Of a DNA stretch of 64,000 nucleotides, positions 37,101 to 41,290 are shown in pieces. The position numbers and the translations under genes are program-made. Source of the DNA: Ahaetulla prasina. Its lineage: Eukaryota; Chordata; Lepidosauria; Squamata; Colubridae. Location of the stretch: NCBI RefSeq assembly GCF_028640845.1, contig NC_080540.1, positions 134,382,420 to 134,446,419 on the forward strand, in the 5' to 3' direction. The notes below the pieces were generated by a model that had not been told where the DNA came from, did no database searches, and saw only the letters and a list, made by a program, of their open reading frames with translations. Within the stretch, counting starts at the first letter, position 1. Every line of letters starts with the position of its first letter.

Positions 37101-39316
37101 TTTATTGTGGTTTTAATATTCGGCCGTATTTAATAAGTTTTTTAAATTGGGGTTTTAACTTGTATTTATATTTATGTTTTACTTGGTTGAGTCCCTTGGG
37201 AGATAGGGCGGTATAAAAATATGATTAAATAAATAAATAAATAAATATATGACAGGGAAATAAATTTCTTTTGGCATTTTTAAACCACTCTGTGGCCAGA
37301 AGAACAGTAAGAATATAGCTTATAGTCTATTTGAGCTATCAACTTTGTGGGCAATTGTGAATTGTCTCATTGCTGTGCTAAACTGCAGAGTTCCTTCCTT
37401 TCTCCAATTCTAATCGTTTTATTGACGTTTTTCTTTCTGCACTGCCATATATGCATCTGTGGAATTTTTTCAGCCTATTTGATAAGAATTAATGCTGTCT
37501 TCCTGAAAATGACTGAAAAGCAGGGGTGGCACCAAAAAGCACTAAGATTATATTTGGCACTTAAACATCCTTGATTTGGATGGGGCTTTCTGGAATAACG
37601 TCTTTATCACTGTTCCTGAAAATTGATGGCATAATTTCCTCCATGTTGAGATAGCACATCACGTCCTATAAAATATTTAAAGTAGTTGGTGAAACAAAGA
37701 AAGAAAAAGAAAAGAAAAGAAGACACACAGACCCCAAATCCAAGAGAGTCCTTCTAAACCCACCGACGTACAAAATTGCTCTGTCAGTTGTAGCCCCATG
37801 TTAAATGGGACCCCTGGCCATCATTTCTGCTGTAAGAGAATTTGTTTTCATTTCTCATTCATTCATTCATTCATTCATCCATTCATTCTATTCTCTGTAT
37901 CTACAGGAACCCAAGAGACGTGGTATTTTCCGGTTGGTAGACAGTGGCAACAATCTCACCACTGATCTGATAGTGAAAAGAATAATTAAGAACAGGTTAG
38001 CTGCTTGTAATTTTGTGTGTAATATGATAGGATTTTGATTTTGCTGCTATAAACTCTTCATTCATTGGACCTATCTTTTTATTACCCAACCCAAAGTAAT
38101 AATTTACAGAAGAAAGAAGGAAGAACCTACACAGAGTTATTCTGTTTTGTTTGGAGATATATTTTGATTCCACAGTACTGAGAGCTACAATGAAAGTTAT
38201 TATATTTTTCTAGTTATGCTTTCATTGGGGTGGGATTGGGGTATCTTTAAACAGTTACCTAAAAGTATTAAAGTATATTAAAGTAATCCTTATACAGTAG
38301 AAGATCATGTAGCCACCGCTGAATAGTTTTCTACTAAATTTGGTAGCTTAATTTTGAGGGCTGCAGAAATGTATTTTGTATCATGTGCAGTCCACAAACC
38401 ATGAATTACCCACTTCGATGCAGTTATATAACTGTGGTTCTGAAGATACATTTTTTACCATATCATGTGAATGCTCAACGTTTTTCCTATAGTTTCAGGT
38501 CTACATTAATCTGTAGGTCACAGAATGCCAGGCTGCCTATAGTAACATTGAGTTATATTCTGATTTCCTTAAACGTAATCAATAATGCAGCTAGAATACT
38601 TTTCACAAAGAAGGAAGAAGACATGATAAATTCCTTAATTGCTCTGTATTTGGATTTGAACAGGAAATTATGCTTTGGATTAGCATGGGCACTATCTTTT
38701 TTTTTTTTGTTTACATTTATACCCCGCCCTTCTCCGAAGACTCAGGGCGGCTTACAGTGTATAAGGCAATAGTCTCATTCTATTTGTATATTTTTACAAA
38801 GTCAACTTATTGCCCCCCCAACAATCTGGGTCCTCATTTTACCTACCTTATAAAGGATGGAAGGCTGAGTCAACCTTGGGCCGGGCTCGAACCTGCAGTA
38901 ATTGCAGGCTTTGTGTTCTTAATAACAGGCCTTACCAGCCTGAGCTAAACCGGCCCCTATCTTTGTATTGATCACTGTTTCTTAAAGAGCCATACTGAGG
39001 CCACTGTATGACCTAGGACCTTTGTGGATCTGAAGCACCCTTTCCTGCTTTCTGAATACCATACATCTGATTTGTAGAAGAAAATTCTTAGAAACCGCTC
39101 AGAGCAGACATAAGAACATCAGAGTTGCCCAGCAATTTGAACAAGTGCAATGAAATTAAATCTTTATACAATTATGGATCTCTTGGTTGTTGTAGGTTGG
39201 AATTTGAAGCTCGGAATCAGAAGAAAGAAGCCAAGGAACTGGCTGTATTGGAGGTCATGAAAAGAAATGAGGAAGCAGCCCAACAGAAGATAGGTTTAAG
39301 GAACCAAGAAAGTTAG
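6837..39316 (+). CDS. PCYT2: PCYT2, ethanolamine-phosphate cytidylyltransferase, 13 exons, 389 aa
   Basis: Converts CTP and phosphoethanolamine to CDP-ethanolamine and pyrophosphate, the rate-limiting step of the Kennedy pathway to phosphatidylethanolamine; cytosolic/ER-associated (family knowledge). Seen: join(6837-6916,18487-18575,24321-24482,25130-25196,25666-25750,27467-27511,29907-30045,31653-31735,31842-31919,34482-34547,36153-36218,37907-37995,39196-39316), all AG/GT, phases consistent, 389 codons plus TAG, the same length as the human main isoform. Two cytidylyltransferase folds: HYGH at residues ~32-35 with RTQGVSTT ~137-144, and HVGH at ~223-226 in the second half. The first repeat is the catalytic one in this family. 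The C-terminus is basic/acidic helix with [11 protein letters not shown]. Start chosen because it opens the MLRNG... leader that joins RVWCDGC in phase. Introns are repeat-filled (gene ~32.5 kb). The last exon is duplicated downstream (40432-40552). Confidence 0.96.
7161..8216. other. PCYT2: PCYT2 intron 1, no feature recognised
   Basis: Intronic sequence after the CpG island, becoming AT-rich after about 7700. No repeat ends or coding similarity seen. Confidence 0.5.
8219..8353. mobile_element. Mariner-type MITE (CGGTGTTTCCCC family)
   Basis: About 135 bp with inverted ends CGGTGTTTCCCCAAAAATAA and TTATTTTGGGGAAAACAGGG, flanked by TA at 8217-8218 and 8354-8355. A second copy is at 23049. 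Confidence 0.85.
8356..10085. other. PCYT2: PCYT2 intron 1, no gene
   Basis: AT-rich intron. The 74-codon open frames around 9744-10086 show no family features. The only structure seen is the 25-bp duplication. Confidence 0.5.
9035..9084 (+). repeat. Perfect 25-bp tandem duplication
   Basis: The unit ATATTTTATCCAATTTAGCA plus GCACC occurs twice back to back (9035-9059 and 9060-9084). Confidence 0.9.
10095..10680 (-). mobile_element. L2-like LINE 3' fragment
   Basis: On the minus strand it encodes the end of a non-LTR reverse transcriptase: [38 protein letters not shown] and [10 protein letters not shown], the conserved post-RT region of L2/Rex-type elements. The non-coding 3' end ATTTATATACCGCCCT lies at the left. 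It is inserted into the CR1 element that continues at 10681. The same family occurs at 36262-37246. Confidence 0.82.
10681..11684 (-). mobile_element. CR1 LINE, interrupted (proximal part)
   Basis: Minus-strand remnants in CR1 order: endonuclease motif [16 protein letters not shown] next to 11684, then GSDHAILEF (11325-11507), a Lys-rich linker (11005-11286), and the RT opening [20 protein letters not shown] (to 10803). Several stops and frameshifts. It is cut on the left by the L2-like piece and on the right by the CR1/L3 insertion. Its upstream part reappears at 15075. Confidence 0.85.
11685..12402. mobile_element. hAT-type MITE at the LINE/CR1 junction
   Basis: Ends GGGGTGAAATC (left) and CATTTCACCCCTG (right) match the MITE family at 26 and 45694. 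The flanking CCCATTA on both sides (about 11676-11683 and 12403-12409) looks like the target duplication. The interior contains (CA)n and (CACAA)n near 11838-11900. Confidence 0.7.
11838..11900 (+). repeat. (CA)n/(CACAA)n microsatellite
   Basis: A run of CA dinucleotides followed by CACAA units and a short CA run, inside the hAT MITE. Confidence 0.95.
12403..15074 (-). mobile_element. CR1/L3-type LINE (snake L3), 5'-truncated
   Basis: Minus-strand non-LTR retrotransposon. From its 5' side: endonuclease end with [25 protein letters not shown] and GHSDHCMIH (14511-15060). Then [61 protein letters not shown] (F-A-D-D active site) and [12 protein letters not shown]. Its 3' end at the left carries (ATTCT)n, read as AATAG repeats at 12410-12433. 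Many frameshifts. It splits the CR1 element with a short shared ATTA(C) at both edges. Confidence 0.85.
12410..12433 (+). repeat. (AATAG)n microsatellite at LINE 3' end
   Basis: Four to five AATAG units at the 3' terminus of the minus-strand L3 LINE. Such seeded pentamers are a known feature of snake L3 CR1 elements. Confidence 0.9.
15075..15425 (-). mobile_element. CR1 LINE, interrupted (5' part, endonuclease)
   Basis: Encodes the start of the CR1 endonuclease on the minus strand: [43 protein letters not shown], then a GVYNRP-like stretch running to 15075. Its reading resumes at 11684 (GDFN motif), so this is the upstream half of the element at 10681-11684. Confidence 0.85.
15690..17260 (+). 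mobile_element. L1 LINE 3' end with purine-rich 3' UTR
   Basis: Plus-strand ORF2 C-terminus of a vertebrate L1: [38 protein letters not shown] (the C-terminal Cys motif), [10 protein letters not shown] and [15 protein letters not shown]2 is broken by stops (for example at 15942 and 16284). A 3' UTR of almost pure A/G follows at about 16800-17060, and the element ends in AATAAA plus an A-rich tail near 17222-17265. 5'-truncated. Confidence 0.85.
16800..17065 (+). repeat. Polypurine tract
   Basis: About 265 bp of nearly uninterrupted A/G with frequent GGAGG, GGGAAGG and AGGGG runs, in the L1 3' UTR. The antisense Leu/Pro/Ser-rich open frame is an artefact of this composition. Confidence 0.9.
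17261..18486. other. PCYT2: End of PCYT2 intron 1
   Basis: No gene. A CAGGGGTGTCAAACTGG start at about 17537 resembles a hAT MITE left end, with a possible partner GAGTTTGAGAGCCCTG near 17636-17652, but no convincing 8-bp duplication. Confidence 0.45.
18487..18575 (+). CDS. PCYT2: PCYT2 exon 2 (HYGH motif)
   Basis: 89 nt after acceptor TTGTAG; donor GTAAGG at 18576. It encodes [20 protein letters not shown], with the CTP-binding HYGH signature of the first catalytic fold. Confidence 0.96.
18640..18890 (-). mobile_element. tRNA-derived SINE, old copy
   Basis: On the minus strand it has a tRNA-like head (right side, complement of CTAGCCAGGTGCTCTACC, then AGGCCTAATTGGCTC) and a body ending in TAAATAACTCAAGGCAG. 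Same family as 33655-34075 and 52765-52980. Diverged. Confidence 0.6.
18891..22765. other. PCYT2: PCYT2 intron 2, mostly unassigned AT-rich sequence
   Basis: About 3.9 kb with no gene. A/T-rich blocks around 19600-20500 and 21770-22740 look like eroded LINE sequence, perhaps the L1 minus strand, but I could not read a family motif. Confidence 0.45.
22774..22925. mobile_element. hAT-type MITE, perfect 8-bp target duplication
   Basis: 152 bp with ends CAGTAGTGGGTTTC and CAACCCACCACTG, flanked by TTTGAAAT at 22766-22773 and 22926-22933. It contains CACATGCGCAGAG, like the MITE at 26-226. Confidence 0.92.
23049..23181. mobile_element. Mariner-type MITE (second CGGTGTTT copy)
   Basis: Ends CCGTGTTTACCCAAAAATAA and TTATTTTGGGGGAAACAGGG, flanked by TA at 23047-23048 and 23182-23183. 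About 85% like the copy at 8219 by eye. Confidence 0.87.
23184..24320. other. PCYT2: PCYT2 intron 2 remainder
   Basis: AT-rich sequence up to the exon 3 acceptor. No gene or recognisable repeat ends. Confidence 0.45.
24321..24482 (+). CDS. PCYT2: PCYT2 exon 3
   Basis: 162 nt. Acceptor CATAG ends at 24320 and donor GTGAGT starts at 24483. It encodes KHKGPP, the EERYKMV helix and [15 protein letters not shown]. The codon split with exon 2 (G|GT) makes Gly at ~57, where mammals as I recall have Glu. A CT-rich tract begins about 25 bp beyond the donor. Confidence 0.95.
24505..24570 (+). repeat. Pyrimidine microsatellite just after PCYT2 exon 3
   Basis: (CT)n and (CCCT)n stretch starting about 22 bp beyond the exon 3 donor at 24483. 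Confidence 0.9.
24703..24838. mobile_element. hAT-type MITE, perfect 8-bp target duplication
   Basis: 136 bp with ends CGTGGTGGGATTCA and TGAATCCCACCACTG, flanked by TATACAAG at 24695-24702 and 24839-24846. Repeated AACCGGTTGTTAA phrases inside. Confidence 0.92.
25130..25196 (+). CDS. PCYT2: PCYT2 exon 4
   Basis: 67 nt, acceptor AATAG and donor GTAAAC. It encodes [20 protein letters not shown]. Confidence 0.94.
25666..25750 (+). CDS. PCYT2: PCYT2 exon 5 (RTQGVSTT motif)
   Basis: 85 nt, acceptor TTGCAG and donor GTAAGT. It encodes [19 protein letters not shown], including the R-T-x-G-V-S-T-T nucleotide-site motif of the first fold. Confidence 0.95.
25751..26700. other. PCYT2: PCYT2 intron 5, no feature
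   Basis: Intron sequence with no recognised element before the L3 LINE fragment. Confidence 0.45.
26701..27245 (-). mobile_element. CR1/L3-type LINE 3' fragment
   Basis: Closely similar to the 3' end of the LINE at 12403-12900, with the same phrases TTATTGGCCAAGTGTGATT and CTCAGTGTACATAAAAG and a terminal (GAATA)n. 5'-truncated, with small internal deletions. It lies in PCYT2 intron 5. Confidence 0.85.
27467..27511 (+). CDS. PCYT2: PCYT2 exon 6 (linker)
   Basis: 45 nt, phase 0 to 0, acceptor TTTTAG and donor GTAAGG. It encodes [15 protein letters not shown], the variable linker between the two folds. This is the least conserved exon, identified by phase, borders and the Y-R-x-x-A-D pattern. 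Confidence 0.88.
28024..28372 (+). mobile_element. Sauria-type SINE (tRNA head, Bov-B-like tail)
   Basis: About 345 bp. tRNA-like A box GTGGCTCAGTGGCTAAGAC and B box GGTTCGAATCC near the 5' end. Body GGGACCACCTTTGGTGGGAA, then GACGTCTTCAGACAGCGCTG and AACGACTAGCACATATGTGC, ending in (CCTTTA)n. This matches the Sauria SINE layout, which is squamate-specific and mobilised by Bov-B. PCYT2 intron 6. Confidence 0.88.
28732..28838. mobile_element. Palindromic hAT-type MITE
   Basis: 107 bp that is almost entirely one inverted repeat: AACCTTGGCAACTTTAAGAC and its complement flank a short centre around CAGAATCCCTGG. Flanked by CTATAGAA (28724-28731) and CTATAGGA (28839-28846), one mismatch, as an aged 8-bp target duplication. 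The RNA could fold into a ~45-bp hairpin. Confidence 0.88.
28847..29906. other. PCYT2: PCYT2 intron 6 remainder
   Basis: No gene or repeat recognised. I looked for the optional in-frame exon that mammals splice here and saw no convincing candidate. Confidence 0.4.
29907..30045 (+). CDS. PCYT2: PCYT2 exon 7
   Basis: 139 nt, acceptor CTCCAG and donor GTATCC. It encodes [19 protein letters not shown] and [10 protein letters not shown], the start of the second fold. Confidence 0.95.
30775..31523 (-). mobile_element. Bov-B (RTE) LINE 3' fragment
   Basis: Minus-strand C-terminal part of Bov-B ORF2: [79 protein letters not shown] and [18 protein letters not shown], intact for 179 codons (30929-31468). 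The 3' UTR, with GTCGTGTCCGACCCATCGCG, lies to the left. PCYT2 intron 7. Confidence 0.93.
31653..31735 (+). CDS. PCYT2: PCYT2 exon 8 (HVGH)
   Basis: 83 nt, acceptor CATTAG and donor GTGAGT. Together with the last base of exon 7 it gives [12 protein letters not shown]; the mammalian second-fold motif is HIGH. It continues [12 protein letters not shown]. Confidence 0.95.
31842..31919 (+). CDS. PCYT2: PCYT2 exon 9
   Basis: 78 nt after a 106-bp intron; acceptor TTACAG and donor GTGAGT. It encodes [20 protein letters not shown]. Confidence 0.95.
32075..32424. mobile_element. hAT-type MITE (GTGTCAAACT ends)
   Basis: 350 bp with ends CAGGGGTGTCAAACTCG and GAGTTTGACACCCCAG, flanked by CTGTAGAG (32067-32074) and CTATAGAG (32425-32432), one mismatch. 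GC-rich interior. PCYT2 intron 9. Confidence 0.88.
32483..33126 (-). mobile_element. Mariner-type MITE copy D, split by a SINE
   Basis: Reverse-oriented CAGGTAGTCC-family element: left end CAGGTTGTCCTAG, right end GGTCTACCTG followed by TA. Its interior is interrupted at about 32806-33075 by a tRNA-derived SINE, so the MITE is older than the SINE. Confidence 0.82.
32806..33075 (-). mobile_element. tRNA-derived SINE inside MITE copy D
   Basis: Minus strand: the tRNA-like head at the right (complement reads GCCAGTTTAGCTCAGGCTGG with B box GGTTCGAGCC) and body CCCAGATTGTTGGGGGG, ending in GGGCGGGGTATAAATGTAAA plus an A-rich tail at the left. The same family is at 38698-38957. Confidence 0.85.
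33257..33639 (+). mobile_element. Mariner-type MITE copy E
   Basis: Starts TAGGTACACTTATTTGCGAC (diverged) and ends GAGGACTACCAG, with TA at 33255-33256 and 33640-33641. Forward orientation. Confidence 0.75.
33655..34075 (-). mobile_element. Two adjacent old tRNA-derived SINE fragments
   Basis: Two successive minus-strand units (about 33655-33825 and 33855-34075), each with a TCTCCTGGTTT or TTTCTAGGCCA-type tRNA-head complement. The second also has ATACCAAACTGGTTCGC. Diverged. Confidence 0.6.
34112..34267. mobile_element. hAT-type MITE (AGTCCCCAACC ends)
   Basis: Begins CAGGAGTCCCCAACCCCTGG and ends near GTCAGGGACCCCTG. The flanking octamers TTGTAGAA and CTTAAGAA agree only partly. Common amniote hAT end type. 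Confidence 0.6.
34482..34547 (+). CDS. PCYT2: PCYT2 exon 10
   Basis: 66 nt, acceptor CTTTAG and donor GTAAGG. It encodes [22 protein letters not shown] and TG simple repeats start about 15 bp beyond the donor. Confidence 0.95.
34562..34735 (+). repeat. Compound CT / (TATG) / (TG) microsatellite after PCYT2 exon 10
   Basis: Begins about 15 bp past the exon 10 donor: (CT)n with TTTC units to about 34650, then (TATG)n and (TG)n to about 34728. Confidence 0.95.
34737..35115 (-). mobile_element. Probable Penelope-like element 3' region
   Basis: A repeat phrase family (complement reads [20 protein letters not shown], then [20 protein letters not shown] in one frame) that I associate with the 3' region of squamate Penelope-like elements. 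The assignment is from memory of the phrase, not from a catalytic motif. Confidence 0.45.
35498..35810 (+). mobile_element. Mariner-type MITE copy F, eroded
   Basis: Starts CAGATAATCCTCAATTTAC after TA and keeps family phrases (ACAACTGAGCCCAGAATT, CATAACTTTGAGC). The right end has decayed next to a short CA run. Confidence 0.65.
36153..36218 (+). CDS. PCYT2: PCYT2 exon 11
   Basis: 66 nt, acceptor GCATAG and donor GTAAGA. It encodes [20 protein letters not shown]. An L2-like LINE fragment begins only about 45 bp into the next intron. Confidence 0.95.
36262..37246 (+). mobile_element. L2-like LINE 3' part with 251-codon open frame
   Basis: Plus strand, PCYT2 intron 11. Open 36304-37059: [82 protein letters not shown] and [16 protein letters not shown], i.e. 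RT thumb and the conserved C-terminal region. It ends in GGGCGGTATAAAAATATG plus (ATAAA)n at about 37220-37246. 5'-truncated, no internal stop in this part, so a young insertion. Confidence 0.87.
37856..37889 (+). repeat. (ATTC)n before PCYT2 exon 12
   Basis: About eight ATTC units ending 17 bp before the exon 12 acceptor at 37906, forming part of its pyrimidine tract. Confidence 0.93.
37907..37995 (+). CDS. PCYT2: PCYT2 exon 12
   Basis: 89 nt, acceptor CTACAG and donor GTTAGC (weak). It encodes [14 protein letters not shown] and [10 protein letters not shown]. Part of the pyrimidine-rich region upstream of the acceptor is an (ATTC)n repeat. Confidence 0.94.
38698..38957 (-). mobile_element. 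tRNA-derived SINE (same family as 32806)
   Basis: Minus strand, with the same phrases: poly(T) then TTTACATTTATACCCCGCCC at the left, and the tRNA-head complement CAGCCTGAGCTAAACCGGCC at the right. The tandem-duplication unit starts inside it, so its right half recurs at 40055-40193. Confidence 0.87.

Positions 39317-41290: not shown

Follow-up and report, generated by a model that had tools for sequence, protein, structure and literature searches.

A probable recent tandem duplication at the 3′ end of the PCYT2 gene in the Asian vine snake

In the Asian vine snake (Ahaetulla prasina), the 3′ end of PCYT2 raises the question of whether a gene has here gained a second terminal exon by a real duplication, how such an event could have come about and what it would mean for message and protein. 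We address this in a window of 64,000 bp, the whole stretch of DNA analysed, in which sequence comparison finds a 1236-bp unit twice, head to tail, the copies separated by six substitutions and no indels:

38819..40054, + strand: copy 1 of the unit, comprising 377 bp of intron 12, the 121-nt coding part of exon 13 with its stop and 738 bp of 3′ UTR
40055..41290, + strand: copy 2, differing from copy 1 by the six substitutions
40055..40057, + strand: CAA at the junction, found likewise at both outer edges (38819 on the left, 41291 on the right)

An offset of 1236 gives 1095 matches in a 1100-bp block and is the sole offset above 700 among the 80 tried (1200–1279), and the span of identity runs over 38819-40057 against 40055-41293, that is, 1236 bp plus the 3-bp CAA common to the edges. 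Offset scan and edge mapping thus bear out the two tandem, near-identical copies of a preliminary description, as well as the content that it gave them (the end of intron 12, the last exon, its stop and about 740 bp of UTR). When the window is compared with itself by blastn (27 non-self pairs at E 1e-10), this repeat is the only pair of at least 80 bp with more than 97% identity. With an exon and its flanking intron repeated head to tail within one gene, the arrangement is that of a tandem exon duplication.

The gene had been correctly named: the product carries PF01467 in two stretches (E 1.4e-46), the two cytidylyltransferase domains, and matches the solved enzyme 3elb over residues 5-341 (E 1.5e-206), while the only further family listed for it, PF06574, falls under its cut-off. 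The exons are as follows:

6837-6916, 18487-18575, 24321-24482, 25130-25196 and 25666-25750, + strand: exons 1-5 (exons 1-11 span 6837..36218)
27467-27511, 29907-30045, 31653-31735, 31842-31919, 34482-34547 and 36153-36218, + strand: exons 6-11
37907..37995, + strand: exon 12, with donor CAG/GTTAGC, joinable to either copy of the last exon
39196..39316, + strand: copy 1 of the last coding exon, ending in the stop TAG (39314-39316)
40432..40552, + strand: copy 2 of the last coding exon, with the same sequence as copy 1, ending in the stop TAG (40550-40552)

Assembled over GT/AG sites, the 13 exons give a 389-aa frame without internal stops whichever last exon is taken, and both choices yield the same protein, which equals a record named Ahaetulla prasina isoform X2. 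The exon 12 donor after 37995, the acceptors before 39196 and 40432 and the stops 1236 bp apart are confirmed, and with them the earlier reading that both copies keep acceptor, frame, stop and C-terminus.

As to how the unit was doubled, the edges offer the following features:

38692..38964 including flanks, − strand: SINE 38700-38956, with a tRNA-like head, recognised by eye, at the 38956 end
40055..40192, − strand: truncated second SINE copy, carried by copy 2

The SINE is flanked by an apparent 8-bp target-site duplication, CTATCTTT (38692-38699 and 38957-38964), and the left edge of the duplication falls within it; a SINE with its target-site duplication that is cut by this edge was probably in place before the 1236-bp duplication occurred, and the truncated SINE of copy 2 fits that order. 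The window self-comparison (E 1e-10) gives no repeat match across the right edge, the SINE standing at the left edge alone. Recombination between two SINEs was also considered as an origin, and within the window homologous repeats are not found at both edges. The preliminary description had taken the CAA shared by the edges as a sign of microhomology. The three bases are indeed there, and 6.3% of 200,000 randomly drawn breakpoint pairs of the region share at least 3 bp; a microhomology-mediated origin is compatible with the sequence, and the shared bases argue for it weakly.

The consequences for the message turn on the 3′ UTR and on the signals around the two acceptors. In neither copy does the UTR portion contain AATAAA or ATTAAA. 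Weaker variants of the poly(A) signal occur within copy 1. The relevant motifs are these:

41507..41512, + strand: AATAAA, the first canonical poly(A) signal downstream of exon 13, 216 bp beyond the right edge
39450..39451, + strand: donor-like GT (CAG/GTGGAT), the only one with at least 7/9 consensus positions between stop 1 and acceptor 2

Since the first canonical signal lies past copy 2, both splice forms may end together, and the UTR may then measure about 2.2 kb where copy 1 is used and about 1.0 kb where copy 2 is used. Of the earlier proposal that the two forms share a protein and differ in UTR length, the first part thus stands on identical frames, and the second is suggested by the position of AATAAA.

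We consider it likely that the duplication is real and that it arose recently, head to tail, in the lineage of the Asian vine snake, with the following mechanism and splicing scheme. A single break-and-copy event would have doubled the 1236 bp, its two ends lying in the intron 12 SINE and in the 3′ UTR. Exon 12 would then join either terminal exon, both products being cleaved downstream of the AATAAA that follows copy 2; use of copy 1 would leave copy 2 as additional 3′ UTR, whereas use of copy 2 would turn copy 1 into intron and restore the presumed ancestral message. Because both routes lead to one and the same protein, we would expect a nearly neutral change in which the second exon serves as a spare. 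As a weak bet, copy 1, transcribed first and nearest to the donor, would dominate in use. The products of other species are consistent with a young event: both copies encode asparagine at a site where the three other snake records compared (Crotalus, Ophiophagus, Thamnophis) have lysine, which suggests a recent event or homogenisation, and the site carries small weight since it varies beyond snakes (R in the gecko record, M in turtle, L in kiwi). At published squamate rates, the overall divergence of 0.49% would correspond to about 0.9-1.0 My.

The rival explanations draw mainly on where the differences lie. The substitutions, at 39710, 39766, 39776, 39797, 39906 and 40002 of copy 1 (unit positions 892-1184), all fall within the last 28% of the unit and leave the first 891 bp identical, which confirms the earlier count of about six differences in the last third. 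Under an even spread, such crowding has a chance of about 0.0005 at that end, and a gap of that size anywhere at most about 0.0034; chance, one of three explanations offered earlier beside conversion and an assembly effect, is thus unlikely. The clustering counts against a simple recent duplication followed by even mutation. The sequence does not discriminate between conversion, an origin from two alleles and polishing by ambiguous reads. An older real duplication, a sub-case compatible with the preferred reading, would explain the clustering by free divergence of the last third and recent homogenisation of the first 891 bp through gene conversion or a second exchange; the identical part holds SINE and intron sequence, which should not be conserved. 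However, there are six events only, the pattern would also arise from polishing or from unequal exchange between unlike homologues, and the age of about 3.1-3.6 My, from 1.74% divergence over 345 bp, is biased upwards by a stretch picked for its differences. We regard this older history as unlikely. Regulated use of the two terminal exons by tissue or stage, with UTRs of 2.2 and 1.0 kb altering message stability or location, is another sub-case of a real duplication. Both acceptors and frames are intact, and Drosophila pip, in the account of PMC9013439, has mutually exclusive tandem terminal exons. Against it, the copies show no difference over the 377 bp upstream of the acceptors or the 514 bp downstream of them, leaving no copy-specific signal there, and even the best inverted match of the unit within the window is not strong (E 0.80); we consider regulated use very unlikely.

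In an assembly error, the two parental haplotypes would have been joined end to end, or an error would have been made in the consensus of noisy long reads, and the six differences would be heterozygous sites or uncorrected read errors. The divergence and the clustering fit two alleles, and 0.49% could lie within the range possible between the two haplotypes of a single animal. The words "heterozygosity" and "nucleotide diversity" are both absent from the text of the A. prasina assembly paper. Against an error, typical Nanopore errors are homopolymer indels, whereas the differences here are substitutions, five of the six transitions, and the window contains no second such pair. In favour of an error, false exon gains are a documented class (PMC9516828), and polishing with 100-bp paired reads, as outlined for the published A. 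prasina assembly, cannot assign a read to one of two identical copies. On the other side, there is no N at the junction or elsewhere in the window, and several of the false duplications described in the relevant part of PMC9516828 have adjoining gaps. As far as the assembly description goes, the published A. prasina genome has ~80x Nanopore coverage, a 2-kb read cut-off, 20-kb seeds and a contig N50 of 23.87 Mb, so that a stretch of 2.5 kb should lie within many individual reads. That the window belongs to this assembly we infer from one protein match. The long reads and the lack of N disfavour mis-assembly, which we judge rather doubtful.

If the duplication is real, it is a young example of a gene that acquires a second terminal exon, at a stage when the copies have yet to diverge, and RNA-seq data publicly available for the same species could reveal which of two identical acceptors wins. 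It is conceivable, though quite unlikely in our view, that the locus forms a natural experiment, two terminal exons in identical context that compete for a single donor and a single poly(A) signal downstream and differ solely in position, the spare exon shielding the enzyme's C-terminus from mutation; the usage ratio in vine-snake RNA would then directly weigh a preference for the proximal exon against exon definition linked to poly(A). If the duplication is false, it is a useful warning, since tandem exon duplications would be miscounted through an exon gain that looks clean in a long-read assembly.

Among known systems, the human form of the same gene bears on the exon concerned. According to the passages of PMC6821184 on the nonsense variant p.Arg377Ter, it lies in the last exon in 8/12 known transcripts, escapes nonsense-mediated decay and is present in spastic paraplegia patients, so the last exon matters for the enzyme; unlike snake exon 13, the human exon is not mentioned there as duplicated. 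As in the false exon gains of Ko et al. 2022 (PMC9516828), so far as these are characterised there, PCYT2 has a near-identical adjoining exon copy at an allele-plausible divergence; unlike them, the window is gap-free and the species' published assembly has long-read data. Drosophila pip, as portrayed in PMC9013439, shares with snake PCYT2 the head-to-tail repetition, inside a single gene, of a terminal exon together with its acceptor and 3′ UTR, but the PCYT2 copies are near-identical, encode the same C-terminus and lack AATAAA and ATTAAA in the copy 1 UTR.

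The 3′ end of PCYT2 carries a 1236-bp unit twice, head-to-tail, with 38819-40057 matching 40055-41293 and three bases (CAA) common to the edges, which bears out the near-identical tandem unit of the preliminary description. Among the 80 offsets tested (1200-1279), 1236 alone is prominent, with 1095 of 1100 bases matching, and in a blastn comparison of the window with itself the two copies form the sole pair exceeding 97% identity and 80 bp. The pair is absent from the output of Tandem Repeats Finder on the window, in which the longest period listed is 500. About six differences had been claimed, all in the last third; the count is exactly six substitutions, five of them transitions, at unit positions 892-1184, with no indels.

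38819-40054: copy 1 of the unit (end of intron 12, coding sequence of exon 13 with its stop, part of the 3′ UTR)
40055-41290: copy 2 of the unit
39710, 39766, 39776, 39797, 39906, 40002: substitutions, copy 1 versus copy 2 (copy 2 counterparts within 40946-41238)

A tblastn search with a PCYT2 protein maps the exons of the gene from 6.8 to 40.5 kb, and the splice sites read in the window join 13 coding exons into a stop-free protein of 389 aa. As had been predicted, either exon copy encodes the same protein, the 389-aa translations with exon 13 at 39196 or at 40432 being identical. PF01467 is found twice in the predicted protein, and the top protein match, among the best 120 of 2746 matches listed, is Ahaetulla prasina isoform X2, with full-length identity; residues 17-353 of the predicted protein align with 3elb, a solved ethanolamine-phosphate cytidylyltransferase (E 1.5e-206). 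The gecko PCYT2 record has an additional exon between exons 6 and 7; a counterpart here was rejected, as intron 6 offers nothing convincing (best E 1.5). Human patients carry a nonsense change in the last PCYT2 exon, according to the accessible part of PMC6821184, which argues that this exon is important for the enzyme.

We consider it probable that the duplication is real in the animal. The published A. prasina assembly, as described in the available sections of PMC9999515, was built with wtdbg2 from Nanopore reads (PRJNA926696) at ~80x, with a 2-kb read cut-off and 20-kb seeds, was polished with both long and short reads, and has a contig N50 of 23.87 Mb. That paper also describes RNA-seq of the genome animal's heart, lung and kidney and of skin from 30 snakes (PRJNA929071); a further set covers 60 resequenced snakes (PRJNA928843). 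The alternative is an assembly artefact, that is, a false exon gain of the kind documented elsewhere, in earlier vertebrate assemblies, by excerpts of PMC9516828; the 0.49% divergence of the copies, a plausible difference between alleles, also speaks for it. However, single Nanopore reads of the A. prasina assembly should often span 2.5 kb and the window contains no N, so that a scaffold join at the junction 40054/40055 is unlikely. The clustering of the differences is itself open to several readings. Under an even spread, all six would fall in the unit end at 892-1184 with a probability of ~0.0005, and a gap that long would arise anywhere in the unit with a probability of at most ~0.0034. Gene conversion could have produced this pattern, as could unequal exchange if the two alleles differed, or polishing based on unplaceable reads.

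With the two squamate rates found in the accessible text of PMC9447483, 2.4e-9 and 2.8e-9 per site and year, a real duplication would date to 0.9-1.0 My from the whole unit (limits 0.32-2.20). From just the last 345 bp the date would be 3.1-3.6 My (limits 1.1-7.9), an estimate biased upwards because this stretch was picked for containing the differences. One protein residue is asparagine in both copies and lysine in all three other snakes compared, Crotalus horridus, Ophiophagus hannah and Thamnophis sirtalis (seven sequences, four of them snakes including Ahaetulla prasina); elsewhere the site is variable, with R in the gecko, M in the turtle and L in the kiwi records. Judged from these sequences, asparagine in both copies would fit either a duplication after the K-to-N change or homogenisation.

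The left edge of the duplication, at 38819, falls within a SINE; another copy lies in intron 9.

38700-38956: minus strand, SINE flanked on both sides by an apparent 8-bp target-site duplication, CTATCTTT
32803-33073: same orientation, second copy of this SINE, within intron 9 of PCYT2, 95.9% identical to the first over 271 aligned bp

One side of the target-site duplication adjoins a T run, which leaves its exact end uncertain. We read the SINE head as tRNA-like from box-like motifs; ARAGORN returned no tRNA at 38700-38956. Because the left edge cuts the SINE and copy 2 opens with its remainder (40055-40192), the simplest order of events is insertion of the SINE before the duplication. Recombination between the SINEs is unsupported, as the second copy lies far outside the unit and the right edge carries no SINE; more generally, comparing the window with itself places no repeat over the right edge, and recombination between repeats is thus not supported. 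An LTR or retroposed origin of the unit was likewise rejected, since the SINE is the sole repeat match that the unit has at E 1e-10 within the window and the unit includes the end of intron 12. The edge CAA, from which a microhomology origin had been proposed, fits end-joining or template switching without being proof of them, since at least three shared bases occur in 6.3% of random breakpoint pairs (200,000 draws, same region).

The other window self-matches above 88% (blastn) are those of the SINE (the 271-bp match and another spanning 142 bp at 96.5%) and two repeats of 188 bp, 54149-54336 and 58563-58750, 95.7% identical, which bound a retroelement at 54149-58750. Its ORF at 56041-58155 has reverse transcriptase, RNase H and integrase domains (Pfam), that at 55092-56147 has protease matches, all below the Pfam cut-off, and that at 54439-55095 has no Pfam match; the domain order suggests an element of Ty3/gypsy type. 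PCYT2 intron 7 contains ORFs on both strands at 30792-31547, of which the minus-strand ORF 30929-31468 resembles, by eye, a LINE reverse transcriptase tail (BovB-like), and intron 11 holds a 251-aa ORF at 36304-37059 that by eye also resembles such a tail, with a similar-looking stretch at 10270-10803 on the minus strand. Pfam gave no matches on 30932-31468 or 36304-37056. Downstream of the gene, 45740-45919 consists of two adjoining short imperfect tandem arrays with periods of 41 and 32.

The likely outcome of the doubled exon, as read from the DNA, would be one protein with two possible 3′ UTR lengths. The two copies have the same sequence around the acceptors, from 377 bp upstream to 514 bp downstream. 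AATAAA and ATTAAA are absent from the 3′ UTR part of both copies, and the first AATAAA after exon 13 lies past copy 2, at 41507. The GT content of the stretch that follows is 0.50, which is not strikingly high and makes a later cleavage site possible; it is 0.57-0.59 after the AATAAA motifs at 42300 and 42312. The difference in 3′ UTR length claimed previously would hold for cleavage assumed at 41530, where the 3′ UTR would measure 2213 bp via copy 1 and 977 bp via copy 2, but it is conditional, since copy 1 contains weaker signal variants (AGTAAA, TTTAAA, AATATA, CATAAA, AATACA) that make an early 3′ end possible. Copy 1 would be favoured as it is transcribed earlier and lies closer to the exon 12 donor (after 37995); copy 2 would be favoured because the last acceptor is coupled to the poly(A) signal. 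On this coupling, the reference list in the available part of PMC5546720 includes Niwa and Berget 1991 and Dye and Proudfoot 1999. Cryptic splicing within the UTR, from copy 1 to copy 2, is possible, with a single weak donor-like site (7/9 consensus), and is not favoured. In the window the unit meets no strongly matching inverted sequence that might compete through RNA pairing (best E 0.80), and Rfam gave no structured-RNA match at the gathering score in 32000-42500. A bacterial promoter and terminator scan (0 promoter-like, 5 terminator-like) was left unused, since its output has no meaning in a snake gene.

The PCYT2 case is a tandem exon duplication, of a terminal exon. In titles and abstract starts found in the open-licence literature, duplication of the last PCYT2 exon is not named; what is new may lie in the gene affected, in the species and in how fresh the duplication still is. 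If real, it would allow the choice between terminal exons to be tested easily in a natural setting. Tandem exon duplications, including exclusively used terminal exons, are described in the accessible portion of PMC9013439, and PCYT2 resembles those systems in that its terminal exon is repeated in tandem.
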